The translations under genes were made by a program, and so were the position numbers. A stretch of 64,000 nt of DNA from Spirirestis rafaelensis WJT71-NPBG6 (GTDB taxonomy: Bacteria > Cyanobacteriota > Cyanobacteriia > Cyanobacteriales > Nostocaceae), in assembly GCA_019359015.1 (NCBI GenBank), contig JAHHID010000009.1:1-64000 (forward strand), given 5' to 3'. Positions 1,285-16,338 of this stretch are shown here, in pieces. A model generated the notes under the pieces. The model saw only the letters and a list, made by a program, of their open reading frames with translations. It was not told where the DNA came from and did no database searches. Each line of letters begins with the position of its first letter. Position 1 is the stretch's first letter.

Positions 1285-2949
1285 ATGGCTAAACCTGTGA
1301 TTCTGACGGTTGATGACGATCCAGAAGTTTTGCAAGCTGTGGCGCGAGATTTGCGCCAGGAATATGGCGATCGCTTTCGCATCTTGCGTGCCGAATCAGG
1401 TGCCAGTGCCTTAGAAGCATTGGAACAACTAAAACTCCGCAACCAGCCAGTGGCGTTATTCCTCGCCGATCAGCGGATGCCGCAAATGTCTGGTGTCGAG
1501 TTCCTCGAACAAGCGCTATCCATGTTCCCAGACGCAAAACGCGCACTGCTTACCGCTTATGCAGACACCGATGCTGCTATCCGTGCCATCAACACCACAA
1601 GAATCGATTACTACTTAATGAAGCCGTGGGACCCCCCACAAGAACGCTTGTACCCTGTGCTGAACGATTTGCTTGATGATTGGCAAGCCACATTCCATCC
1701 ACCATTTGAAGGCATTCGCGTCATAGGCAACCGCTGGTCTCCCCATTCCCATCAAGCCAAAGACTTTCTCGCGCGAAATCAAATCCCTTATCAGTGGATG
1801 GACATCGAATTATCATCAGAAGCACAGCAGCTAGTTGAATACGCCGATTGTGATAAATTACACCTGCCCCTTGTTCTCTTCGCCGACGGTTCCAACTTGA
1901 TGCAGCCAAGCAACGCGCAAATTGCCGAGAAAATTGGCTTGAAAACTCAAGCAGAAAAACCCTTTTATGACTTAATTATCATCGGTGGCGGTCCCGGTGG
2001 TTTAGCTGCTGCGGTATATGGTGCATCAGAAGGGCTACGCACCGTCATGATTGAACGCGAGGCTCCAGGCGGGCAAGCGGGTACAAGTTCGCGAATTGAA
2101 AATTACCTCGGCTTCCCTGTAGGTTTGAGCGGCGGCGATTTAGCGCGGCGTGCGGTGACTCAAGCAAAACGCTTCGGTGTAGAGATTCTCACACCGCAAG
2201 AAGTTACGGGAATTCGCGTAGAAAACCCGTATCGTTTTGTGCAGTTGTCCGACGGCAGCGAAATCAGTTGCCACGCCCTCATTTTGGCGCTGGGTGTCTC
2301 GTGGCGGCGGCTGAACGTACCCGGACTCGAAAAACTAACTGGCGCAGGCGTGTATTACGGCGCAGCGCAAACAGAAGCGATGAGTTGCCAAGGGGAAGAA
2401 GTGTATATCATTGGTGGCGCAAACTCTGCCGGACAAGCTGCAATGTACTTTTCTAAATACGCCAAGCATGTAACGATGTTGGTACGTGGCGACTCGTTGA
2501 CAAAGAGTATGTCTCAGTACCTGATTGACCAAATTGGTGAAACAGCGAATATCACCGTACAAACGCATTCTAGTGTGATTGAGGCAAAAGGTGAGACTTC
2601 TTTAGAAGCGCTGACAATTGTGAATGCGCTGACTGGTGAAACGCAAACGGTGCCGGCGACATCACTATTTATCTTTATTGGCGCACAACCGCGCACCGAC
2701 TGGTTAGATGGTGTGGTGGAAAAAGGCGATCGCGGCTTTATTTTAACAGGTCCCGATTTACAACTCAATCAACGCCGCCCCAAAGGATGGACGCTCGAAC
2801 GCGATCCTTATTTATTAGAAACAAATATCCCCGGTGTCTTTGCAGTCGGTGACGTGCGTCAAGGTTCAGTTAAGCGAGTGGCTTCCAGCGTCGGTGAAGG
2901 ATCAATTTGCGTTCAATTTGTGCATCAATATCTTAGCAACGTAGTGTGA
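1285..2949 (+). CDS. Response regulator fused to thioredoxin-reductase-like flavoprotein
   Basis: 554 residues in three parts. Residues 1-125 are a receiver domain with DDD at 10-12, the probable phosphoacceptor D62 (ADQRMP) and the conserved MKPW lysine. Residues ~143-215 look like a glutaredoxin/thioredoxin fold, but the usual CPxC position reads WSPHSH (151-156). Residues ~225-554 are a thioredoxin-reductase-like module with an FAD motif (GGGPGG, 234-239), a nucleotide motif (IIGGANSAG, ~375) and the C-terminal VFAVGDVR. The place of the catalytic CxxC reads VYYGAAQTEA (~357), so both redox disulfides are absent. It may thus be an FAD/NAD(P)H sensor or a different oxidoreductase, gated by phosphorylation of the receiver. 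The two histidine kinases downstream are likely partners (inference). Confidence 0.9.
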   Translation: MAKPVILTVDDDPEVLQAVARDLRQEYGDRFRILRAESGASALEALEQLKLRNQPVALFLADQRMPQMSGVEFLEQALSMFPDAKRALLTAYADTDAAIRAINTTRIDYYLMKPWDPPQERLYPVLNDLLDDWQATFHPPFEGIRVIGNRWSPHSHQAKDFLARNQIPYQWMDIELSSEAQQLVEYADCDKLHLPLVLFADGSNLMQPSNAQIAEKIGLKTQAEKPFYDLIIIGGGPGGLAAAVYGASEGLRTVMIEREAPGGQAGTSSRIENYLGFPVGLSGGDLARRAVTQAKRFGVEILTPQEVTGIRVENPYRFVQLSDGSEISCHALILALGVSWRRLNVPGLEKLTGAGVYYGAAQTEAMSCQGEEVYIIGGANSAGQAAMYFSKYAKHVTMLVRGDSLTKSMSQYLIDQIGETANITVQTHSSVIEAKGETSLEALTIVNALTGETQTVPATSLFIFIGAQPRTDWLDGVVEKGDRGFILTGPDLQLNQRRPKGWTLERDPYLLETNIPGVFAVGDVRQGSVKRVASSVGEGSICVQFVHQYLSNVV

Positions 2950-2963
2950 AACCTCTCCCCCAG

Positions 2964-3020
2964 CCCCTCCCCTCGTAGGGGAGGGGAGCAATTCTCCCCC
3001 TTCCCTTGTAGGGAAGGGGG
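2964..3020. repeat. Two adjacent GC-rich hairpins
   Basis: CCCCTCCCC (2964-2972) pairs with GGGGAGGGG (2978-2986), and CCCCCTTCCCT (2996-3006) pairs with 3010-3020. They sit in an AACCTCTCCCCC...GGGGTTAGGT context that resembles the other AACCTCACCC-type elements in the window. There is no poly-T tail, so termination is not supported. Confidence 0.8.
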
Positions 3021-3084
3021 TAAGGGGTTAGGTAACAATGAATTTTTGATGTCACAATGAAATAAAAATAGAGAGGTAAAATCC

Positions 3085-3309
3085 ATGCAAGAAATAACTC
3101 TCGCTGAAGCATCTCAAAATTTGCCAGAATTAATTGAAGCCGCAATGAATGGTGAAGAAATCGTGATTACAAAAGACGAGCAACCAGTTGTGAAACTAAC
3201 TCCTGTATCGCCAGTGAAACGTCGCCCCCTATTTGGAAGCGCTAAAGACTTGATTACGATATCTGATGACTTTGATGAGCCTTTAGAAGACTTTAAGGAT
3301 TATATGTAA
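3085..3309 (+). CDS. Phd/YefM-type antitoxin
   Basis: 74 residues. The N-terminus (ITLAEASQNLPELIEAAMNG) and the following strand (EEIVITKDEQPVVKL) match the Phd/YefM antitoxin fold, which binds DNA as a dimer and wraps its C-terminal tail around the toxin. AGAGAGG lies upstream of the ATG. The stop TAA overlaps the ATG of the toxin frame by one base, the usual coupling for such pairs. The partner toxin is frameshifted, so the antitoxin may be an orphan repressor. Confidence 0.85.
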   Translation: MQEITLAEASQNLPELIEAAMNGEEIVITKDEQPVVKLTPVSPVKRRPLFGSAKDLITISDDFDEPLEDFKDYM

Positions 3310-3694
3310 TGAGATTACTGCTAGATACTCACACCTTTATTTGGTTTTTTAAGGGCAATACCCAACTGAGTAATCAAATACGGGTGTTAATTGAGGATGA
3401 AAATAACGAAAAGCTAATTAGTACAGCCAGCATGTGGAAATGGCGATTAAACAAAGCATCGGGAAGCTGAGTTTTCATCTGCCCTTTGAGGAATTCATCA
3501 CACAGCAACTCAGTCTTAACGACTTCAATTTGCTGGAGATTAAAATAGACCATCTTATTGTAGTTGCAAAGCTACCTCTTCACCATCGCGACCCATTTGA
3601 CAGACTTTTAATTGCACAAGCAATGGTTGAGCAAATACCGATTTTAAGTGCTGATTCTGCTTTTGATGCTTATCCGATTCAGCGGTTGTGGTAA
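3309..3694 (+). pseudogene. Frameshifted PIN-domain (VapC-like) toxin
   Basis: Translation from 3309 begins MRLLLDTHTFIWFF, the PIN start with its first acidic residue, and runs to ISTASMW at ~3436. The frame then reads WKWRLNK and stops. One base downstream, the correct continuation (EMAIKQSIGKLSF) resumes and runs to 3694 with the later PIN motifs DPFDRLLIAQ and ILSADSAFD. A single missing base in the codon after TGG (about 3437) explains this. The predicted RNase is therefore disrupted, unless the base was lost by sequencing error or is bypassed. Confidence 0.88.
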
Positions 3695-3765
3695 GTAGTA
3701 AAGGAGAAGAAATTTTGCGCGGTCGCCTCACAAAATTTGTCAATCACTATTGATACGGAGTTGCC

Positions 3766-5148
3766 ATGCTGCACGATCCCAACCAGAACACACTCTTCCC
3801 GAAACTGCCTGATGAAGCATTACAGGAGATGCAGCAATTTGGCAAAGAAATTAAGCTCAACAAAGGCGATATCCTATTTAATGAAGGCGAATCAAACTAT
3901 AACTTTCATGTTGTTTTAGAAGGCGAAATCGAGATTACTAAGCAAGTTGGTGATGAAACAAGACTGTTAGCAGTACATCGCCGAGGTGAATTTATGGGTG
4001 AATTGTCGATGTTGACTGGTTCCGCATCAATTGCTAATGCTAAAGCCTTATCACCAAGTCGCGTCTTGCAAGTTGAAATTGATACTTTTAGACAAATTAT
4101 GGCAGAATGTTCGCCTTTAGCTGATGTGATTCTTAGCGCAATGGCAGGGCGAACTAAAGACGTAGAAGCACAACTTAGACAACAAGAAAAGCTGGCAGCG
4201 CTGGGTAAAATGTCAGCGGGACTGGCACACGAATTAAATAATCCCGCCGCAGCCGGAAGACGCGCAGCAGGGCAACTGCGGGAGAATTTTCAAAGCTTAC
4301 AAAATATGGCTTTGCAGTTAAATTCACTTAATAAAGAACAACTAAATTTTATTATCAATTTTCAACTGCAAGCAACGCAACACACAACCAAATTTGACAC
4401 ACTTACCCAAAGCGATAAAGAAGACGAAGTAACAGAGTGGCTAGAAGACCATGATGTTAGTAATGCTTGGAAACTTGCCTCTACATTAGTTTCCGCTGGC
4501 ATTGATGCCGAGAAGTTAGATACTCTTGCCGACAACATACCCCAAGACTGTCTCAGCAACGTTTTAATTTGGTTAGAAGCATCACTTACTTCTCATGGAC
4601 TTATCAACGACATTGAACAAAGTACCAGCCGAATCTCGGAATTAGTGAAAGCAATTAAAGGCTATTCCTATATGGATCAAGCCCCATTGCAAGAGATAGA
4701 TTTGCATGATGGAATTGAAAATACTCTACTTATTCTCAATCATTGCTTAAAAAAAGGAGTCATCGTCAACCGCGAATATGATAGGACTCTCCCACGTATT
4801 TGCGCTTATGCTAGCGAACTCAATCAAGTGTGGACAAATCTAATTGATAATGCCATTTATGCGATGGATGGAAAAGGCGATTTAACAATACGCACATACC
4901 GAGAAAATAGCTGCCTTGTAGTCGAAATTGCCGATACCGGAATGGGTATTCCGCCAGTAATTCAAACCCGTATTTTTGAGCCTTTTTTTACTACAAAACG
5001 CGTTGGACAAGGCACAGGTTTAGGTTTAGAAATTGCCTACCGAATTATTGTTAAAAGACACAAAGGTGATATTCACTTTGAATCTCAACCTGGTAATACT
5101 CGTTTTCGGGTGCGTTTGCCAATACCTACAGAAAAATGTGACGAATAA
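3766..5148 (+). CDS. Cyclic-nucleotide-domain sensor histidine kinase
   Basis: 460 residues. Residues ~15-135 are a cNMP-binding (CRP-like effector) fold with GEFMGELSMLTG in the phosphate-binding-cassette region. A coiled linker leads to the H-box AGLAHELNNP (His near 155), and a helical region precedes the ATPase domain: N-box NLIDNAIYAM, G1 ADTGMGIP and G2 GTGLGL. No membrane segment is seen, so it is probably cytosolic. A CGGAG ribosome site precedes the ATG. It is a close paralogue of the next gene, which starts 57 bp on. It should phosphorylate a receiver, and the receiver-flavoprotein at 1285 is the nearest candidate (inference). The ligand, if any, is unknown. Confidence 0.9.
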   Translation: MLHDPNQNTLFPKLPDEALQEMQQFGKEIKLNKGDILFNEGESNYNFHVVLEGEIEITKQVGDETRLLAVHRRGEFMGELSMLTGSASIANAKALSPSRVLQVEIDTFRQIMAECSPLADVILSAMAGRTKDVEAQLRQQEKLAALGKMSAGLAHELNNPAAAGRRAAGQLRENFQSLQNMALQLNSLNKEQLNFIINFQLQATQHTTKFDTLTQSDKEDEVTEWLEDHDVSNAWKLASTLVSAGIDAEKLDTLADNIPQDCLSNVLIWLEASLTSHGLINDIEQSTSRISELVKAIKGYSYMDQAPLQEIDLHDGIENTLLILNHCLKKGVIVNREYDRTLPRICAYASELNQVWTNLIDNAIYAMDGKGDLTIRTYRENSCLVVEIADTGMGIPPVIQTRIFEPFFTTKRVGQGTGLGLEIAYRIIVKRHKGDIHFESQPGNTRFRVRLPIPTEKCDE

Positions 5149-5204
5149 AGTTGAGTAATTTGCATGACTGGTAATGTTTAAAATACCAAATATCAAATTT
5201 ATTT

Positions 5205-6668
5205 ATGCTTGATATCAACACTTTACGCCAAGTACCAACTTTCAAAAAATTACCGGAACAACGTTTGCAATGGCTACTTGAACAAATTACAGAGGTATGG
5301 TTAGAGCCTGGTGAAATTCATCGCCAAGAAGGAGATCCAGTAGATCATGTTTTTGTACTGTTAGAAGGTGAAATTAGAATTTCGCAAAAAGTTGGAAATC
5401 AAGAAGTTTTATTAGTGACATTTAAGCCGAAAACATTGTTTGGTGAATTGCCCGTTTTAATGGGTGATAAAAACTTCTGGGTAACTAGTCGTGCCGTGAC
5501 TCGCAGCCATATTTTAGAATTGCCAAATAAAGCTTTTTGGGAAATGCTTTCTAGTTGTACTTGTGTGATGAAAAATATTTTGCAAAACATGGCACAACGG
5601 CTGCAAACAGTGCAGTCAATATCACAACATCGAGAAAAATTAGTATCATTAGGCACTTTAGCCGCCGGATTAGCACACGAGTTGAATAATCCTGCCTCAG
5701 CAGGTCGCAGAGCTGCTGGACAATTACGCCAAACTGTGCAGCTATTGCAACCATTGACAATTAAATTAAATCAACAGCAGATGAACTGTGCCCAAAAAGC
5801 CTTTCTTGCAGAGTTACAAGAAGATGCAATAGAACGGGCAAAATCAGCAACAAAACTCGATCCAATAACTCAAAGCGATCGCGAAGATGAAATCACACAA
5901 TGGCTAGAAGTACACAACATACAAAATGGCTGGAAACTTGCTCCAAACCTGGTTACAGCCGGAGTTGACATCGAATGGGTGGCGAATGTTCAACAAAAAG
6001 TAGGCGATTTATTGCTGGGTGATGTCCTCACTTGGATACAAGTAACTTTGCAAGAACTAGATTTGTTAGAAGAAATCGAGCATAGCACTGACCGTATTTC
6101 TACTTTAGTACAGGCAGTCAAAGATTACTCGTACATGGATCAAGCACCCTTACAAGAAATAGATATTCATGAAGGGTTGGAAAGTACCTTAACAATCTTG
6201 AATCACAAGCTGAAACAAGGTGTAATCGTGAAGCGTGAATATGACTGTGATACACCGCGTATCAGCGTTTATGGCAGTGAATTAAATCAAGTGTGGACTA
6301 ACTTAATTGATAATGCCATTCATGCAATGACAGTAGGAACTGGGAAAGGAGGACGCGGGGATGTTTCTACAAATGTCTCCTCATCTTCTTCCCAATCCTC
6401 AATCCCTACCATCTGGATTCGCACCGCTTGCGAAAACGACTTTTTGCTAGTAGAAATTACTGACAATGGTCCAGGAATTCCCCCAGAAATTCAATGTCAC
6501 ATTTTCGAGCCTTTTTTCACTACCAAAAGTGTGGGACAAGGAACCGGCTTAGGTTTGCACATTGCCTATCGCGTCATCGTTGGGCAACACCTAGGCGATA
6601 TCAGCGTATTTTCTGAACCAGGAAAGACAAAGTTTCAAGTTCGTTTGCCGATGAATTTATCTTCGTAG
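5205..6668 (+). CDS. Cyclic-nucleotide-domain sensor histidine kinase (paralogue)
   Basis: 487 residues with the same order as the preceding kinase: cNMP-binding fold (~20-135, LFGELPVLMG), H-box AGLAHELNNP (His near 158), long helical middle, then N-box NLIDNAIHAM, G1 TDNGPGIP and G2 GTGLGL. Between the N-box and the next strand it has about 20 extra Ser/Gly-rich residues (encoded near 6340-6410) that the paralogue lacks. Their DNA reads like the CCCAATCC-type repeats seen elsewhere, so they look like an in-frame repeat insertion. Tandem duplication with divergence suggests the kinases read different signals or form heterodimers (inference). Confidence 0.9.
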   Translation: MLDINTLRQVPTFKKLPEQRLQWLLEQITEVWLEPGEIHRQEGDPVDHVFVLLEGEIRISQKVGNQEVLLVTFKPKTLFGELPVLMGDKNFWVTSRAVTRSHILELPNKAFWEMLSSCTCVMKNILQNMAQRLQTVQSISQHREKLVSLGTLAAGLAHELNNPASAGRRAAGQLRQTVQLLQPLTIKLNQQQMNCAQKAFLAELQEDAIERAKSATKLDPITQSDREDEITQWLEVHNIQNGWKLAPNLVTAGVDIEWVANVQQKVGDLLLGDVLTWIQVTLQELDLLEEIEHSTDRISTLVQAVKDYSYMDQAPLQEIDIHEGLESTLTILNHKLKQGVIVKREYDCDTPRISVYGSELNQVWTNLIDNAIHAMTVGTGKGGRGDVSTNVSSSSSQSSIPTIWIRTACENDFLLVEITDNGPGIPPEIQCHIFEPFFTTKSVGQGTGLGLHIAYRVIVGQHLGDISVFSEPGKTKFQVRLPMNLSS

Positions 6669-6709
6669 TAAGCACTTCAGTGCTTAAATACAAGCACTAA
6701 AGTGCTTAC
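6668..6709. repeat. 18-bp inverted repeat between kinase and zinc finger genes
   Basis: GTAAGCACTTCAGTGCTT (6668-6685) pairs with 6692-6709 with one mismatch and a 6-base loop. It overlaps the end of the kinase stop codon. It may attenuate or stabilise the mRNA between the two genes, but no T-run follows. Confidence 0.8.
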
Positions 6710-6731
6710 TACTAATTTATCAGGAGATTTT

Positions 6732-6986
6732 ATGACTACATGCACACATCTCAATGAAATTCAAGAAGTTACAGCCAGCGCTAACGGTTGTGAAGAATGT
6801 TTAAAAATGGGGGACAGATGGGTGCATTTGCGCCAATGTCTTCTTTGCGGACACATCGGTTGCTGCGACTCTTCAAAAAACAAACACGCCACCAAGCACT
6901 TTCACGCCAGCAATCATCCGATTGTCAAGTCTGCTGAACCGGGTGAAGAATGGCGCTGGTGTTATATCGATAAAACTTTCGTTTAG
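6732..6986 (+). CDS. UBP-type zinc finger protein
   Basis: 84 residues starting at the ATG preceded by AGGAG; a GTG at 6702 in the same frame lies within the hairpin and is unlikely. The spaced ligands (CTHL, CEEC, CLLCGHIGCC, HATKHFHASNH) and the ending GEEWRWCYID are those of the ZnF-UBP fold. In eukaryotes this fold binds the free C-terminal Gly-Gly of ubiquitin. Cyanobacteria lack ubiquitin, so the ligand is unknown. Binding another protein's C-terminus is one possibility (inference). It follows the kinases closely and is probably co-transcribed with them. Confidence 0.88.
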   Translation: MTTCTHLNEIQEVTASANGCEECLKMGDRWVHLRQCLLCGHIGCCDSSKNKHATKHFHASNHPIVKSAEPGEEWRWCYIDKTFV

Positions 6987-7090: not shown

Positions 7091-7210
7091 AATTTAAAAT
7101 TAATCCGCACAAAAGCGATAATTGCTCTCATACATAGCAGCCTGAGTGGAATATTTACATCAATTAGATTTCTTAATTTTGAACTTTTAATTTTGAATTT
7201 TGAATTTATT

Positions 7211-9739
7211 ATGACATCTCCAGTAACAGTAACATGGCTAGAAGAACGCACAGCTTTAGGAATTCTTGAAGCTGAAGTGTTAAATGCGATCGCCCAACAA
7301 ATCGAAGAACAAATCATCCCACCTCAAACCAACCTAGTTGTAGAAAAAACAGAACCAGAAGCACTTTACATTCTTGTTGAAGGTCAACTCGAAAGCGATA
7401 GCAGCAACCAAGCTAACCCAGCGTTAGCGATCGGCTTCCTTCCTGGTGCCGTGATTCACCTGCAAGAATTGCTGTTAAACCAGCCGACGCAACGCACCAT
7501 CACCACCCTTACAGAATGCCATGTTTGGGTTGTGCCTGCCGAAAAATTTCGCGCTTTAGTCAGTGAATACCCGGAAATTTTTCAAGCTGTTTCTCGTCAA
7601 TTGGCGCAAGAATTGGCGGATTTAACATCAGCCTTTACCTACGAACAAGAACGAGCGATCGCCTTACGACCGTATTTAGTCACCAAAGCCAAACGGGGAA
7701 TTGTTGGTACAAGTCGCTATGCGGTGCGTTTGCGCGAGGAAATTCGCGAAGCTGCGAATGACCGCAAATCTGTCTTGATTTTCGGCGAACCAGGTTTAGA
7801 AAAAGACAATATAGCCGCTTTAATTCACTTTGGTTCTAAACAGCGACGCGAACCGATTATCAAAGTTAACTGTGGTATCCTCCAAACCAGCGGTGCAGAT
7901 TTATTCGGACGTGCTGGCGGCAAACCAGGACTGCTGGAATGGTTGGGGGAAGGTACTCTTGTCCTTAATAACATTCAAGAAACTCCCCCAGAGTTGCTGC
8001 CACAATTAGTCAATGTCATTAAGAATTCTACGTTTAGTCCCGTAAGCCGTTCTGAAGAACCACCCGCCGCACCGCGCACTTCTCGCGCTCGGATTATGAT
8101 TGTTTCCGAAAAAAATCAGCCGCAAATAGAACGCTGTATCGGTCATAACATCAAAGTGCCACCGCTGCGAGTGCGAAAATCTGATATCAAGGCTCAAGTA
8201 GATTATTACATCAGTCTTTATACTCAGGCTAGGGGTCTTCAGAAACAAAAATTAGCGCCAGAAGCATTGCGTCGCTTGCAATCTTATGATTTTCCTGGCA
8301 ATTTGAAAGAGTTGGAAAGTTTGGTACAAAGGGCAATTGTTCAAGCTGGGTCAGCGCGGGAGTTAACAGAAGAAATTTTCTGGTCAGCGGACACGAAGAA
8401 AAGGCGATTTCGGGTGAATTTATTGAATGTCTATCCAGATTTGCGGAAATTTCTCCGCAGTCCGTGGTGGCCCGATCGCATTAATTATGGCTTTACTGCC
8501 ACTGCTTTTGCCTTGATTGTCGCAGTGTTATTTATTGGTCCGCAAACACGCGATCGCAATTTCGTTCTCAATCTATTTTGGGCTTGGTGGTGGGCTTTTT
8601 TCCTGTTTCTCTTTCCCTTTCTCGGTCGCGTGTGGTGCGCTGTTTGTCCCTTCATGATTTATGGGGAAATTACGCAAAAGCTCTCTTTATGGTTGTTTCC
8701 TCGACAACTTAAACGTTGGAATCGACAGCTAGCTGAAAAATGGGGTGGATGGTTTATTTTTGGACTATTTACCCTAATTTTCCTGTGGGAAGAACTTTGG
8801 GATTTAGAAAATACAGCTTACCTTTCTGCTTGTTTGCTGTTGTTGATTACCGCTGGCGCAATGATTTTCTCTGCCATTTTTGAACGGCGGTTTTGGTGTC
8901 GATATCTCTGTCCCATCGGTGGAATGAATGGTTTATTTGCTAAACTTTCAATGACCGAACTTCGAGCGCAGCAAGGTATTTGTTCTGCCACTTGCACCAC
9001 TTATCAATGCTACAAAGGTGGACCCCAAAAAGGGGAGGGAATGGAAACTAATGGATGTCCTTTGTATTCGCACCCAGCACAATTAGAAGATAACAAAGAC
9101 TGCGTGCTGTGCATGACTTGTCTTAAAGCTTGTCCCCATCGTTCCGTTGAGTTTAATTTGCGTCCCCCTGGTATTGAATTGTGGACAACTCACGTATCCC
9201 ACGCTTATGAAGTAGCATTGTTATTTTTACTATTGGGTGGAGTGTATCTGCATCGTTTACCAGAATTGCAATCTTGGTTAGGATTACATCTCGATTTAAC
9301 CCAGTTTTGGCAACATTTAGGATTATCGCTACTAGCTTTGATTATCCCTGTAGCTGTTCCTTTTGCGGCATATGGTTTGACGAAAATAATAAATTTTGGA
9401 CGTAAGCCAAAAGCATTTATAGAACTTGCTTATGGCTATCTACCATTAGTTCTGGGAGGTAACTTAGCTCACTATCTGCGTTTGAGCCTAGAAGAAGGCG
9501 GACGCATTCTCCCGGTAACTTTTGCCACTTTTGGTCTAAATGGTCAGCAATTGCCTGTATTGGTCGCTCATCCAGCGGTGGTTGACTTTTTGCAGGGTTT
9601 CACTCTGATTTTTTCAGTTTTATTAACGATAGTGTTAACGCAAAAAATTGCTCGTCAATCGATGCGATCGCTCTTTTGGCAACACTTAGCAGCTATTACA
9701 CTAGGCGCTAGTATGTGGGCAATTATAGTATCTAATTAG
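7211..9739 (+). CDS. cNMP-domain / degenerate AAA+ / membrane 4Fe-4S fusion protein
   Basis: 842 residues from the ATG at 7211; an upstream TTG at 7193 lies in TTTTGAA repeats. Residues ~15-135 are a CRP-like cNMP fold. Residues ~155-400 match the sigma-54-activator AAA+ domain, ending with PGNLKELESLVQRA (~362). The Walker A position reads GEPGLEKDN, the Walker B position reads LVLNNIQE in place of LFLDEI, and no GAFTGA loop is seen, so ATP hydrolysis and sigma-54 contact are doubtful. From ~430 on come several membrane helices with WCAVCPF, RYLCPIGG, a CSATC-CYKGG-GCPLY region and a ferredoxin motif CVLCMTCLKACP (~632), then more helices. This half resembles NosR/CcoG-type membrane ferredoxins that pass electrons across the membrane. 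It may link redox state to the kinases (inference). Confidence 0.87.
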   Translation: MTSPVTVTWLEERTALGILEAEVLNAIAQQIEEQIIPPQTNLVVEKTEPEALYILVEGQLESDSSNQANPALAIGFLPGAVIHLQELLLNQPTQRTITTLTECHVWVVPAEKFRALVSEYPEIFQAVSRQLAQELADLTSAFTYEQERAIALRPYLVTKAKRGIVGTSRYAVRLREEIREAANDRKSVLIFGEPGLEKDNIAALIHFGSKQRREPIIKVNCGILQTSGADLFGRAGGKPGLLEWLGEGTLVLNNIQETPPELLPQLVNVIKNSTFSPVSRSEEPPAAPRTSRARIMIVSEKNQPQIERCIGHNIKVPPLRVRKSDIKAQVDYYISLYTQARGLQKQKLAPEALRRLQSYDFPGNLKELESLVQRAIVQAGSARELTEEIFWSADTKKRRFRVNLLNVYPDLRKFLRSPWWPDRINYGFTATAFALIVAVLFIGPQTRDRNFVLNLFWAWWWAFFLFLFPFLGRVWCAVCPFMIYGEITQKLSLWLFPRQLKRWNRQLAEKWGGWFIFGLFTLIFLWEELWDLENTAYLSACLLLLITAGAMIFSAIFERRFWCRYLCPIGGMNGLFAKLSMTELRAQQGICSATCTTYQCYKGGPQKGEGMETNGCPLYSHPAQLEDNKDCVLCMTCLKACPHRSVEFNLRPPGIELWTTHVSHAYEVALLFLLLGGVYLHRLPELQSWLGLHLDLTQFWQHLGLSLLALIIPVAVPFAAYGLTKIINFGRKPKAFIELAYGYLPLVLGGNLAHYLRLSLEEGGRILPVTFATFGLNGQQLPVLVAHPAVVDFLQGFTLIFSVLLTIVLTQKIARQSMRSLFWQHLAAITLGASMWAIIVSN

Positions 9740-9856: not shown

Positions 9857-12412
9857 ATGTTCCAATCAAGCAGTAGAAACTTTACAGATCATCATCAGAA
9901 ACTGTTGCAATTTAACAGCTTGGCAGAATCTTTTTCCAGAGACTTGCTTGGTGAAGTAGACCTTGTGAGAATTACCGCCAGAGCGAAACAAAAGCAAAAA
10001 GATAAGCAAACACTGGGTCAATTTTTGACTCCTGCGAGCGTAGCAGAATTAATGGCTGGGATGTTTGAAAAACTTGATTATCCTCAAATATCTCTGCTTG
10101 ATGCTGGAGCCGGATCTGGTTCATTACTTGCAGCATTCGTGGCTAACCTTTGTCATCAGCAACAACACCCAATAAATTTAGACATTGTTGCCTATGAAAT
10201 AGATCCGTTTCTAATTAAATATTTACGTCAAACATTAAAATTATGTGCAAGCGAATGTCAGATAGCTGGTATTTCCTTTAATTATGAAATCCGTGAAAGA
10301 GACTTTATTGAGGATGCCGTTACAATTGTTAGCGACAATTCAATATTTACTCACGCTATTCTCAATCCTCCGTATTTGAAAATCAAAGCTAATTCTAAGG
10401 TTCGTACATTGTTACGTTCTTTAGGATTAGAAACCAGCAATCTCTATACGGGTTTTATCGCTGCTACAGCACATCTCCTCAAGTCAGGAGGGGAACTTGT
10501 AGCCATCTCACCGCGTAGTTTCTGTAATGGACTGTATTTTAGAGACTTCCGTAAGATGTTTTTAGAGATGATGGCTTTACGCCAGATACATCTTTTTGAA
10601 TCCCGACAAAAAGCATTTAGCGATGATGAAGTTTTGCAGGAAACAGTTATCATTCATGCTATAAAACAAAAGCAAAAGTTTGATAATGTACTCATCAGCA
10701 CAAGTTCAAGTGCTGATGACGATTTTGTTATGTCAAACTCCTTATCTTATACAGAAATAGTTCATCCTAACGACTCAGAACAATTTATTCATATTATTCC
10801 AGATACTTTTAGTCAGCAGGTCGTTCAACAAATGGGAAATTTAACCTGCACTTTGAAAGACCTAGGATTGACAGTATCAACTGGACGTGTGGTAGATTTT
10901 CGGGCAAAAGAATATTTGCGTTTAATACCGGAAGAAAACACAGTTCCTTTAATTTATCCTGTGAATTTATCTCAAGGATATGTTGAGTATCCAAAGACAA
11001 CTAGAAAACATCAAGCCTTGGTGCATGTAGAACAAACGGCTTCGCTTTTGATACCGAATGAACACTATGTTTTGAACAAACGCTTCACCTCAAAAGAAGA
11101 AAAAAAAAGAGTAGTTGCTGTTGTATACGATGCTGAAAGAATTAACTCTTCCTGGGTTGGTTTTGAAAATCACCTAAATTACTTTCATAAAAATGGACGG
11201 GGACTCGATCTTACTCTGGCACGCGGTCTTGCTGCTTATCTTAACTCCAGCCTCGTAGATACTTTTTTTCGACTGTTTAATGGGCACACTCAAGTTAATG
11301 CAACTGATTTACGAAATTTAAAATATCCGACAATGCAGCAGCTTATGTCGGTGGGTGTACGAATTCAGGATAAGTTGCCCTCACAAAAAGAAATTGATGA
11401 ATTTGTGTCAGAATTTTTGAGTATGACGGATCAATTTGAAAATAATTTATTCACAATTAAATCTCGTATTGATGAAGCACTGCAAATACTAATTGAACTT
11501 GGACTTCCACGGGCACAACTTAATGAACGTTCAGCATTAACCCTTCTTGCCCTACTAGATTTGAAGCCAACCGAACCTTGGAAATCTGCGGTATCTCCTT
11601 TAATGGGAATCACGCCAATGATGCAATTTATGGCACAGCATTATGGCAAAACATATAAACCCAATACGCGGGAAACTGTTCGCCGCCAAACAGTCCATCA
11701 ATTCTTAGACGCTGCTTTGATAGTTGCAAATCCAGATAATCTAGGTCGTCCGATTAACAGCCCGAAAACCGTATATCAGATTGAAGAAAGTGTACTTGAA
11801 TTATTACGTACTTATAAAACCCCCGAATGGGAAAAAAGTATTCGTACCTACCTTGCATCAGTTGAAACTCTGAAAAAACGATATGCTCAAGAGCGCGAAT
11901 TGTCACGTATTCCTGTAATGATTGAAGGAGAACTTAAGACTCTATCGCCAGGTGGTCAAAACGTTTTAATTGAGAAGATTATTAATGAGTTTGCACCACG
12001 TTTTACACCAGGAGGAAAACTAGTTTATGTAGGCGATACAGATGAAAAATTCGCGCATTTCAACCAAGCGGCATTATTAGATTTAGGTGTGACAGTCGAT
12101 TCTCACGGTAAAATGCCTGATGTAATTATCCATCATCTAAAGAATAACTGGTTAGTTTTAATTGAAGCTGTAACTTCTCACGGTCCAATTAACCCCAAGC
12201 GAAAGAAAGAACTTGAAACTATCTTTGCTAATACAAAAATTCCGCTTGTAATGGTGACGACGTTTCTCAGCCGTAAGGCTATTGTGGAGTATTTGGCGGA
12301 AATTGCTTGGGAAACAGATGTCTGGGTTGCTGAAGATGCTACTCATCTGATTCATTTCAATGGAGAATATTTACTACAGGCTTACAAAGTAGATAAATCT
12401 GACACAGAATAA
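9857..12412 (+). CDS. Fused BsuBI/PstI-type restriction-modification enzyme
   Basis: 851 residues. The first ~540 form an N6-adenine methyltransferase: SAM motif LLDAGAGSGSLLAAF (~81-95), catalytic NPPY (~170) and the N-terminal QFLTPASVAELMA signature. The rest matches the BsuBI/PstI endonuclease: a helical N-part (~560-680) and a PD-(D/E)xK-like core with VYVGDTDEK, PDVIIHH (~754) and IEAVTSHGPINPKRKKELE (~769). In typical BsuBI/PstI systems, methylase and nuclease are separate genes; here they are one chain. By family, the target may be CTGCAG or a related site (inference). No separate specificity or control gene is adjacent. Confidence 0.88.
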   Translation: MFQSSSRNFTDHHQKLLQFNSLAESFSRDLLGEVDLVRITARAKQKQKDKQTLGQFLTPASVAELMAGMFEKLDYPQISLLDAGAGSGSLLAAFVANLCHQQQHPINLDIVAYEIDPFLIKYLRQTLKLCASECQIAGISFNYEIRERDFIEDAVTIVSDNSIFTHAILNPPYLKIKANSKVRTLLRSLGLETSNLYTGFIAATAHLLKSGGELVAISPRSFCNGLYFRDFRKMFLEMMALRQIHLFESRQKAFSDDEVLQETVIIHAIKQKQKFDNVLISTSSSADDDFVMSNSLSYTEIVHPNDSEQFIHIIPDTFSQQVVQQMGNLTCTLKDLGLTVSTGRVVDFRAKEYLRLIPEENTVPLIYPVNLSQGYVEYPKTTRKHQALVHVEQTASLLIPNEHYVLNKRFTSKEEKKRVVAVVYDAERINSSWVGFENHLNYFHKNGRGLDLTLARGLAAYLNSSLVDTFFRLFNGHTQVNATDLRNLKYPTMQQLMSVGVRIQDKLPSQKEIDEFVSEFLSMTDQFENNLFTIKSRIDEALQILIELGLPRAQLNERSALTLLALLDLKPTEPWKSAVSPLMGITPMMQFMAQHYGKTYKPNTRETVRRQTVHQFLDAALIVANPDNLGRPINSPKTVYQIEESVLELLRTYKTPEWEKSIRTYLASVETLKKRYAQERELSRIPVMIEGELKTLSPGGQNVLIEKIINEFAPRFTPGGKLVYVGDTDEKFAHFNQAALLDLGVTVDSHGKMPDVIIHHLKNNWLVLIEAVTSHGPINPKRKKELETIFANTKIPLVMVTTFLSRKAIVEYLAEIAWETDVWVAEDATHLIHFNGEYLLQAYKVDKSDTE

Positions 12413-13833: not shown

Positions 13834-13845
13834 AAAAAAAGACAT

Positions 13846-14230
13846 AATGCGTGATCTACCGAAATGAGAAAGCATTCAAGCATTTTGAGAAAGCAATATG
13901 CCTTTTTGCTTGCCCAAAACACCAAAATGAATGCGTGATTTACCGAAATGAGAAAGCATTCAAGCATTTTGAGAAAGCAATATGCCTTTTTGCTTGCCCA
14001 AAACACCAAAATGAATGCGTGATCTACTGAAATGAGAAAGCATTCAAGCATTTTGAGAAAGCAATATGCCTTTTTGCTTACCCAAAACATCAAAATGAAT
14101 GCGTGATTTACCGAAATGAGAAAGCATTCAAGCATTTTGAGAAAGCAATCTACCATTTTGCTTGCCCAAAACACCAAAATGAATTAGTGAATTATTCAAA
14201 TGAGAAAGCATTCAAGCATTTTGAGATGAT
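13846..14230. repeat. 84-bp tandem repeat array, about 4.5 copies
   Basis: The GTGAT/GTGAA landmark recurs at 13851, 13935, 14019, 14103 and 14187, exactly 84 bp apart. Each unit contains ATGAGAAAGCATTCAAGC, a second TGAGAAAGCA, and TTTTGCTTGCCCAAAACACC. The first three copies are nearly identical and the last is truncated at TTTTGAGATG. There are no unique spacers, so this is a minisatellite, not a CRISPR array. 84 is a multiple of three, so the minus strand stays open as a 28-residue repeat, but nothing supports translation. It lies just downstream of the TIR-TPR gene. Confidence 0.9.
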
Positions 14231-14265: not shown

Positions 14266-16338
14266 CTACGCACCAAATAAACGTCCCCAAAAACCCTTGT
14301 TCTTATTCCTATAAATCTCTAAGTTGTCACGAATCACAGTGTTACTAGGATCGAGGCGAACAGCTATTTCCAGTTCTGCGATCGCTTCATCTAGTTTGCC
14401 TTGATCGTACAGCGCATTCCCCAGCCTATAGTGAGCAAATGCATAGTTTGGGTCGATTTGCAAGGCTTGGCGATAGGACGCGATCGCTTCATCTAGTTTG
14501 CCTTGATTGTACAGCGCTAACCCCAGGTCATTGTGAGCAGTTGCTAAGTTTGGGTCGATTTGCAACGCTTGGCGATAGGAGGCGATCGCTTGATCTAGTT
14601 TGCCTTGATTGGAGAGCGCATTCCCCAGGTTATTGTGAGCAAGCGCATAGTTTGGGTCGATTTGCAACGCTTTGCGGAAAGAGGCGATCGCTTGATCTAG
14701 TTTGCCTTGATTGGAGAGCGCTAACCCCAGGTTATTGTGAGCAGGTGCTAAGTTTGGGTCGATTTGCAACGCTTGGCGATAGGAGGCGATCGCTTGATCT
14801 AGTTTGCCTTGATTGGAGAGCGCAATCCCCAGGTTATTGTGAACATCTGCTAAGTTTGGGTCGATTTGCAACGCTTGGCGATAGGAGGCGATCGCTTGAT
14901 CTAGTTTGCCTTGATTGAAGAGCGCAATCCCCAGGTTATTGTGAACATCTGCTAAGTTTGGGTCGATTTGCAACGCTTGGCGATAGGAGGCGATCGCTTG
15001 ATCTAGTTTCCCTTGCTTGGACAGCGCTAACCCCAGGTTATTGTGAACATCTGCTAAGTTTGGGTCGATTTGCAAGGCTTGGCGATAGGAGGCGATCGCT
15101 TCATCTAGTTTGCCTTGATTGAAGAGCGCAATCCCCAGGTTATTGTGAACATCTGCTAAGTTTGGGTCGATTTGCAAGGCTTGGCGATAGGAGGCGATCG
15201 CTTCATCTAGTTTGCCTTGATCAGACAGCGCAATCCCCAGGCAATTGTGAGCATACACAGAGTTGGGGTCAAGATTGAGGGCTGCTTTGTATTTGAGGGC
15301 TGCTTCCTCGAACTTTTTATTTTCGCGTAAACGATCTGCTTCGTTGATCAGGCTAGTGACTTGATATTCGCGCTTTTCTAGCTCTTGTGCAGTGACTTGC
15401 TCTTCAATCAGGGTTACATCCTCATCCCTGAGTTTTAGCATGTGCTGATAATTCTTTAATCCTTCACGGCTGTGGTCACTGAGTGGATACTCCCATTGCT
15501 GGACTTTGATTAATTCTTGCTCATATCGTCGTAACTTTTGCTGATAGTCCTCCAGCGACACCTCTACCTTTTGAACACTGACAACCTTTAGATATAAATC
15601 TCCCCGTTTATTGGTTATCGGGTTAAGTTTACCTTTACCTCGAATCCGCAGCTTCTTACCAGGACTAAAACTAGATGGAACAGTCACAGTAATTGAGCCA
15701 TCCTCCAGCGCAATCTTCTTTTCTGTGCCGTAGGTCAATTCACCAATGCTAAGAGGGAGTTCTAGCGTCAGGTCAGTTTCAACTTGATTGCCAGACTGAG
15801 GTGGAGCTTTATCTGCTGAGGGTTTCAGAGCAAGGGGCTTTTGGTTTGCAGAATTTTGTTTGGGTGGTGAGTAATTCGAGCTAGCAACTAATCGCTTAAC
15901 TTCCTCCCGAATGCCTTTGACAACTTCTAAGAATGCTTCATCTCGGTCAGTCCAGCTTTTTATTGGTTTACGATTACTAGGCAAGGGAGATAGTTTATCA
16001 ATGGGAGGAGCGTCCCAATCCGCATAACGCAGTAACACTGGGATAACACTAGCCTTCCCTGCTGCATTCTGCTCTAATGCTCGTGTAATTTCAACTGTCC
16101 AATGATAATCTGAAGCAATGAAATCTGGACTCACCAACAACAGGATAAGCCCAGCTTGGTTGAGAGACTTATTAATTTCACCTTTAAATTCCTGCCCAGC
16201 GACGATTTGGCGATCGCTCCAACTGATAATAGTTTTTTCCCGCAGCAAAGTCGCTAGATGCTTCTCTAACTCTTCGCGTAAGTCGTTATCCTTTTGGTGG
16301 TAAGAAATAAAAACTTCAACAGATTTCATAGGGGGCAT
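14266..16338 (-). CDS. TIR - DnaJ C-terminal-like - TPR protein
   Basis: 690 residues. Residues 5-150 are a TIR domain (VEVFISYHQKDNDL, LILLLVSPDFIASDYHW) with a Glu at 83 at the place of the NADase catalytic Glu. A Pro/Lys linker follows. Residues ~190-265 match the DnaJ C-terminal substrate-binding domain (SIGELTYGTEKKIAL, GKKLRIRGKGKL, RGDLYLKVVSV), but no J-domain is present. A coiled stretch (~265-345) leads to about ten 34-residue TPRs, most reading IASYRQALQIDPN. The C-terminus (RNKNKGFWGRLFGA) is basic and amphipathic. The repeats are near-identical in DNA, so copy number may vary. It starts 17 bp after the other TIR gene and is probably its operon partner. Possible role: protein-complex sensing with NAD-linked signalling (inference). 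Confidence 0.88.
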   Translation of the reverse strand: MPPMKSVEVFISYHQKDNDLREELEKHLATLLREKTIISWSDRQIVAGQEFKGEINKSLNQAGLILLLVSPDFIASDYHWTVEITRALEQNAAGKASVIPVLLRYADWDAPPIDKLSPLPSNRKPIKSWTDRDEAFLEVVKGIREEVKRLVASSNYSPPKQNSANQKPLALKPSADKAPPQSGNQVETDLTLELPLSIGELTYGTEKKIALEDGSITVTVPSSFSPGKKLRIRGKGKLNPITNKRGDLYLKVVSVQKVEVSLEDYQQKLRRYEQELIKVQQWEYPLSDHSREGLKNYQHMLKLRDEDVTLIEEQVTAQELEKREYQVTSLINEADRLRENKKFEEAALKYKAALNLDPNSVYAHNCLGIALSDQGKLDEAIASYRQALQIDPNLADVHNNLGIALFNQGKLDEAIASYRQALQIDPNLADVHNNLGLALSKQGKLDQAIASYRQALQIDPNLADVHNNLGIALFNQGKLDQAIASYRQALQIDPNLADVHNNLGIALSNQGKLDQAIASYRQALQIDPNLAPAHNNLGLALSNQGKLDQAIASFRKALQIDPNYALAHNNLGNALSNQGKLDQAIASYRQALQIDPNLATAHNDLGLALYNQGKLDEAIASYRQALQIDPNYAFAHYRLGNALYDQGKLDEAIAELEIAVRLDPSNTVIRDNLEIYRNKNKGFWGRLFGA

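Follow-up and report, generated by a model that had tools for sequence, protein, structure and literature searches.

A gene that joins three modules

What could a protein do that carries, in one chain, a cNMP-binding fold, an AAA+ domain of the sigma-54 activator type and a membrane module with iron-sulphur ligands? This question is raised by a gene of Spirirestis rafaelensis WJT71-NPBG6 found in the window, which we have defined as the whole stretch of 64,000 nucleotides that was analysed. The initial annotation had read the gene as a fusion of three modules that normally act separately, and this was borne out: in the protein, a cNMP-type domain is followed by an AAA+ domain of the sigma-54-activator type and its lid, and then by a polytopic membrane module in which 12 cysteines are conserved. 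The frame is open without interruption from 7211 to 9736 on the forward strand, with the stop codon reaching 9739 and a TTG at 7193 as a possible alternative start, and a genome search showed the gene to be single-copy in its own genome. Its main parts are as follows:

7211..9736, + strand: whole fused gene, 842 aa (open frame, Pfam matches, relatives)
7211..7588, + strand: cNMP-binding-fold domain, residues 1-126 (Pfam PF00027, E 5.5e-11)
7574..7675, + strand: long connecting helix, residues 122-155 (AlphaFold2 model)
7691..8398, + strand: bEBP-type AAA+ domain with lid, residues 161-396 (Pfam PF00158/PF25601; structural match)
8420..9736, + strand: membrane Fe-S module with nine predicted transmembrane helices, residues 404-842 (AlphaFold2 models; Fer4_5)

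The Pfam matches above cut-off were cNMP_binding (residues 37-120), Sigma54_activat (164-285), AAA_lid_14 (320-386) and two copies of Fer4_5; no DNA-binding or HTH domain and no receiver or enzymatic output domain was among the Pfam matches of the 842-aa protein. The NCBIfam matches shown for it are partial (bEBPs, NapH and a CRP-type regulator), all of them below their cut-offs. The full-length AlphaFold2 model had a pTM of 0.57, and the orientation of the domains relative to each other is uncertain. A search of the open literature returned no description of this domain architecture. To us, the fused protein looks like a conserved, unstudied redox protein in which a motor domain has been turned into a non-hydrolysing control head.

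Distribution and origin of the fusion

Using a class-wide sample (E 1e-80), we found relatives in 204 of 291 class genomes and in 101 of 129 genera, so that about 70% of the sampled cyanobacterial genomes carry one. In a search of 386 phylum genomes, near full-length relatives appeared throughout the class, and the matches outside it were weak and covered the AAA+ or the Fe-S part only. The cyanobacterial proteins fall into three groups: a main clade with the order cNBD-AAA+-membrane and 54-92% identity, a picocyanobacterial clade in which the cNBD is absent, the AAA+ domain shortened and the membrane half kept, and a paralogous clade B with about 40% identity. Beyond cyanobacteria, we looked for relatives of the membrane module, using a stand-alone relative from Deinococcus to lead the search, and found stand-alone modules in Bacillota, Chloroflexota, Actinomycetota and others. 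The same fusion, plus an additional N-terminal segment, is present in Desulfofustis and in one Desulfobulbaceae genome, and dozens of Desulfobulbales genomes encode fused proteins, some in multiple copies, alongside stand-alone modules. Hence, the search for the same domain order that had been suggested as a check yielded more than 200 class genomes and a parallel fused family in Desulfobulbales, and a module order repeated in so many genomes is far from a chance event.

Regarding the origin of the fusion, trees of the AAA+ domain placed every Fe-S-fused AAA+ domain on one side versus six bEBPs (100/98 and 100/99). Such sequence trees are consistent with a bEBP AAA+ domain having been taken over once. 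A tree of the membrane module, which has long branches, left a single fused clade neither supported nor rejected (p-AU 0.35). One genus (g150; L230-L232) has the degenerate AAA+ domain tandemly duplicated within one chain in three genomes, and this duplication suggests that AAA+-AAA+ contacts matter.

The membrane module retains all of its cysteines

The membrane half contains the following elements:

8636..8650, + strand: CX2CP motif, C476-P480 (invariant)
8897..8914, + strand: CX3CP motif, C563-P568 (Cys invariant)
8981..9058, + strand: first 4Fe-4S ligand set, atypical CX3CX4CX15CP, C591, C595, C600 and C616 (Cys invariant)
9101..9133, + strand: second 4Fe-4S ligand set, canonical CX2CX2CX3C, C631-C641 (Cys invariant)
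9203..9727, + strand: C-terminal helices TM5-TM9 with the conserved YGYLPLV..LAHYL..GL.E.G (alignment; AlphaFold2 models)

The statement that the ferredoxin half keeps its Cys clusters stands, as all 12 of 12 cysteines of the membrane half are invariant. Eight cysteines that could supply two 4Fe-4S ligand sets are present, the first set with an unusual spacing; the first motif is CX2CP in 91 of 91 main-clade proteins, and the 255 positions of the NapH profile are too few to reach the TM5-TM9 region. In one Desulfobulbales subfamily (L193-L212), the first Cys-Pro motif becomes CX2C[STAG], and some of the cNMP domains have the phosphate-binding signature. The model of the membrane module (pLDDT 88.7, pTM 0.89) has nine membrane helices and places both Cys-Pro motifs on the same side as the head. 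Counting from a cytosolic head, we infer from this model that both Cys-Pro motifs and both cluster sets would face the cytosol. With the membrane module alone, Foldseek gave no solved-structure match at E <=0.001, a result that is not proof of a new fold. The description of this half as NosR/CcoG-like had to be revised, the nearest curated family being NapH/MauN, with scores short of all curated cut-offs.

The AAA+ head keeps its P-loop and has lost the catalytic machinery

The AAA+ domain matched the structures of NtrC1, FleQ and NtrX, with Z 24 over about 227 residues. To contextualize its motifs, we scored them in a single alignment that included six bEBPs as the control (6/6 intact). The sites concerned are:

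7784..7810, + strand: derived P-loop GEPGLEKDN, residues 192-200 (Lys198 invariant)
7901..7942, + strand: LFGRAGGKPGLLEW, residues 231-244, the site of the GAFTGA loop deletion (motif alignment)
7967..7972, + strand: Asn253-Asn254 instead of the Walker B Asp-Glu pair, LNN (Asn at each position in 87/89 of the main clade)

The claimed loss of Walker A was contradicted, since all 111 cyanobacterial proteins that could be scored have the P-loop Lys, as do 113 of 113 overall (88/88 main clade, 14/14 picocyanobacterial, 9/9 clade B and 2/2 Desulfobulbales). The main clade shows no variation at Lys198, Gly192 or Gly195; the only Gly that has changed is the residue before the Lys, which is Glu in 63 and Gly in 17 of the 88 main-clade proteins. 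The loop ends in KD in the fused protein, and bEBP P-loops end naturally in GKE. The stretch GEPGLxKDN is among the best conserved of the domain: in the main clade, 33 of 237 AAA+ columns are conserved at >=98%, and seven of them are P-loop positions (G192, E193, G195, L196, K198, D199 and N200). This conservation argues for selection on a derived site and not for decay. Clade B keeps a GxxGxGKT P-loop, with the Walker B Asp mostly present and the Glu never. In the wider Desulfobulbales set, many P-loops are of the GxxGxG[KR] type, some with Arg instead of the Lys, the GAFTGA is replaced and the Walker B Glu is absent in every protein that covers the site.

As for Walker B and the GAFTGA loop, both reported losses were confirmed. 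The Asp-Glu pair has become Asn-Asn, and the catalytic Glu is missing in 114 of 114 fused proteins of the motif alignment; GAFTGA has been deleted from all 89 main-clade and all nine clade-B proteins scored and is vestigial in the two aligned Desulfobulbales proteins (GAFSFS and GAFPQA). The arginine-finger segment is deleted in the fused proteins of the same alignment. The question whether Walker residues are consistently lost therefore has two answers: yes for the Walker B Glu, no for the P-loop Lys. Homologues with a complete AAA+ motif set were sought and none was found, some P-loops being intact and the Walker B Glu never. Judged by its motifs, the AAA+ domain of the fused proteins is consistently hydrolysis-dead. 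The proposal of a scaffold or nucleotide-independent switch is accordingly half kept: a scaffold or switch fits the loss of the Glu, the arginine finger and GAFTGA in two phyla, but nucleotide independence sits badly with a P-loop under strong selection, for which nucleotide binding without hydrolysis is the better guess.

A similar division applies to the cNMP sensor. The cNMP fold is there (PF00027 above its cut-off), but the sensor part is not sustained, as none of the 91 main-clade and nine clade-B proteins has the phosphate-binding GE...R[ST] signature, and the domain as a whole is missing from picocyanobacteria and from genus g75. One Desulfobulbales group has the signature in 8 of 19 proteins. 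Mean pairwise identity was lowest in the cNMP domain (38.5%), followed by the AAA+ domain (58.5%), and highest in the Fe-S core (79.8%).

Genomic neighbourhoods and alternative functions

The neighbourhood comparison gave no conserved gene neighbours for the main clade, and hence no pathway is indicated. Within the window, a receiver-glutaredoxin-like-thioredoxin reductase fusion, two tandem cNMP-histidine kinases and a UBP-type zinc finger protein stand in a row at 1285-6986 (+ strand), and these genes look like one signalling cassette; they were considered as partners and dropped, as they do not adjoin the gene even in a same-genus genome. At 9857-12412 (+ strand), an N6-adenine methylase and a restriction endonuclease of the BsuBI/PstI type are combined in a single 851-aa protein (Pfam), whose gene also lies next to the fused gene in L169, a genome of the same genus (92% identity). 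About four head-to-tail repeat copies of some 90 bases each, with spurious minus-strand frames, occupy 13835-14230, and 14266-16338 (- strand) encodes what is, by eye, a TIR-like protein with near-identical TPR repeats in long succession.

In the clade-B loci, cysK adjoins the gene or lies one frame away in four, and psbA copies and rhodanese-like, persulphide-dioxygenase-like, Hdr-like and Rieske genes occur in several (partly by eye). The clade-B paralogue with GxxGxGKT is found on plasmids and chromosomes (L046, L049, L071 and L072), next to cysK, extra psbA, Rieske, rhodanese, DsrE, Hdr-like or persulphide-dioxygenase-like genes, surroundings that are possibly a sulphide or low-oxygen island. 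Some picocyanobacteria have an overlapping short-chain dehydrogenase upstream and, in three genomes, a Fur-family gene directly downstream, which could not be equated with Zur SYNW2401. The neighbours of one Desulfobulbales subgroup are housekeeping genes. Overall, these hints favour redox or metal work and single out no one pathway.

One could argue that the protein is a redox sensor and not an enzyme, with the Fe-S module monitoring the state of a metal or of the quinone pool, and a protein partner receiving the signal from the AAA+ head. We regard this as rather unlikely, albeit the best of the alternatives. Its head does derive from a signalling protein family; by eye, the Desulfofustis relative adjoins SpoIIE/RsbW/STAS-type partner-switching genes and another Desulfobulbales copy a STAS gene, one stand-alone relative from Bacteroidales adjoins an RsbW-type ATPase, and the picocyanobacterial Fur-family gene points the same way. 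However, cyanobacteria show no conserved output partner, the protein has no receiver, HTH or enzymatic output domain, and its most conserved part is the Fe-S core and not the head, which suggests electron flow itself as the function.

A CcoG-like reductase of metal (copper), or a maturation factor of cuproenzymes, is a weaker candidate, and we find it doubtful. The same broad superfamily also contains CcoG, an Fe-S protein that acts as a cupric reductase (PMC7558416). In 29 of 32 loci of the stand-alone relatives, a gene abuts the module on its upstream side; it mostly encodes a protein with two hydrophobic segments, which is YtkA-like where tested and, as judged by eye, His/Met-rich in some cases, and six loci also have a CopA-like ATPase in the flank. 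That partner is, however, missing from the fused cyanobacterial genes (12 of 40 have any abutting upstream gene), its His enrichment in the stand-alone relatives was not significant (p 0.12), and the membrane half of the window protein gave no match to the CcoG model at <=0.01. In Bacillota and others (L077-L104), the stand-alone Fe-S module and an upstream secreted, anchored YtkA-like or His/Met-rich protein make up an uncharacterised two-gene unit.

A working bEBP-type transcription activator, acting via sigma-54 or, VpsR-like, via another sigma factor, is very improbable. AAA+ homology speaks for it, VpsR is the best PDB sequence match, and one relative is annotated, misleadingly, as a 'nitrogen assimilation regulatory protein'. 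Yet GAFTGA, the Walker B Glu, the arginine finger and an HTH are all missing, and the protein is membrane anchored. Furthermore, a profile search for the sigma-54 DNA-binding family gave no match in the protein's own genome and one above cut-off, a 38-residue piece, among 195 class genomes, with the positive controls (E. coli, B. subtilis and others) matching as they should. This agrees with Francke et al., who reported sigma-54 and its activators to be missing from 29 cyanobacteria (PMC3162934). Without sigma-54 and an HTH, there is little room for an activator.

Finally, misassembly or a chance read-through joining separate genes can be set aside despite split frames on a few contigs (L114, L146), as the same fusion recurs in more than 200 genomes, many of them single-contig.

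A nucleotide-binding head on an electron-transfer protein

The explanation that we favour, with modest confidence, is a quinone-linked, cytosol-facing Fe-S electron-transfer protein that forms a separate clade of the NapH/NosR/CcoG superfamily and bears a nucleotide-binding, non-hydrolysing AAA+ regulatory head. Reading from sequence, this head would have lost hydrolysis and the contact with sigma-54 and kept the phosphate-binding loop; its ligand, the redox partner and the physiological role are inferred. Two [4Fe-4S] clusters would lie on the cytosolic side, beside the head, and the protein would connect the quinone pool on one side with a cytosolic partner on the other, exchanging electrons with both. 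The head may bind nucleotide without hydrolysis, as a dimer or ring, and its nucleotide-bound form could set the position or accessibility of the cytosolic clusters, thus gating or organising electron transfer and not transcription. Such control has a precedent in PspF E108Q, a bEBP variant that acts upon ATP binding without hydrolysis (PMC4132715). Against this explanation, Arg replaces the P-loop Lys in some Desulfobulbales relatives, and the head may matter less in picocyanobacteria, where the AAA+ domain shrinks further and the cNBD is dropped.

A bolder version, which we put forward as a speculation more likely wrong than right, is that nucleotide-gated membrane redox proteins form a new class, shared by most oxygenic phototrophs and with a parallel in Desulfobulbales, in which the AAA+ head would sense the adenylate state and switch the electron flow that links a cytosolic Fe-S partner to the quinone pool. 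The results point to an unstudied membrane electron-transfer protein that may be a missing component in how phototrophs balance their quinone and ferredoxin pools. A motor retained within a redox protein would also account for sigma-54-activator domains in cyanobacteria that have no sigma-54, and the pseudo-ATPase head is amenable to single residue changes.

Comparison with known systems

The head shares with bEBPs (NtrC1, FleQ, NtrX, PspF; PF00158) the AAA+ fold with lid and the P-loop Lys. It differs from them in the missing GAFTGA, Walker B Glu, arginine finger and HTH, in the attached membrane protein and in a cell devoid of sigma-54. Non-canonical bEBPs of the VpsR type also have a bEBP AAA+ domain without the GAFTGA element (PMC3162934), but VpsR is a soluble regulator, whereas the fused protein lacks a DNA-binding domain and sits in the membrane as a redox protein.

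Among redox proteins, CcoG/RdxA/FixG is likewise a membrane Fe-S protein and has the two 4Fe-4S clusters that are predicted for the fused protein, and the YtkA-like and CopA-like neighbours of the stand-alone relatives recall it. In contrast, the membrane half of the window protein does not match the CcoG profile (TIGR02745) at E <=0.01, the fused protein has an N-terminal cNBD-AAA+ head, and it ends in helices where CcoG has an Ig-like C-terminus. NosR and RdhC (PceC) also have a membrane module with a Cys-Pro motif (PMC5928378), but no FMN-binding family is among the Pfam matches of the fused protein, and its membrane half scores 18 bits against the NosR cut-off of 1000. Two CX3CP motifs are common to RdhC, NapH and NosR (PMC5928378), from which the fused clade, with CX2CP and CX3CP, differs. 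The best curated match is NapH/MauN (TIGR02163; E 5.6e-14), in which membrane segments bearing Cys-Pro motifs, as in the fused protein, go together with two 4Fe-4S ligand sets, for which the fused protein has eight candidate cysteines; relative to it, the membrane half reaches 52.3 bits against a cut-off of 213, and the fused protein has CX2CP instead of CX3CP as its first motif and five additional C-terminal helices.
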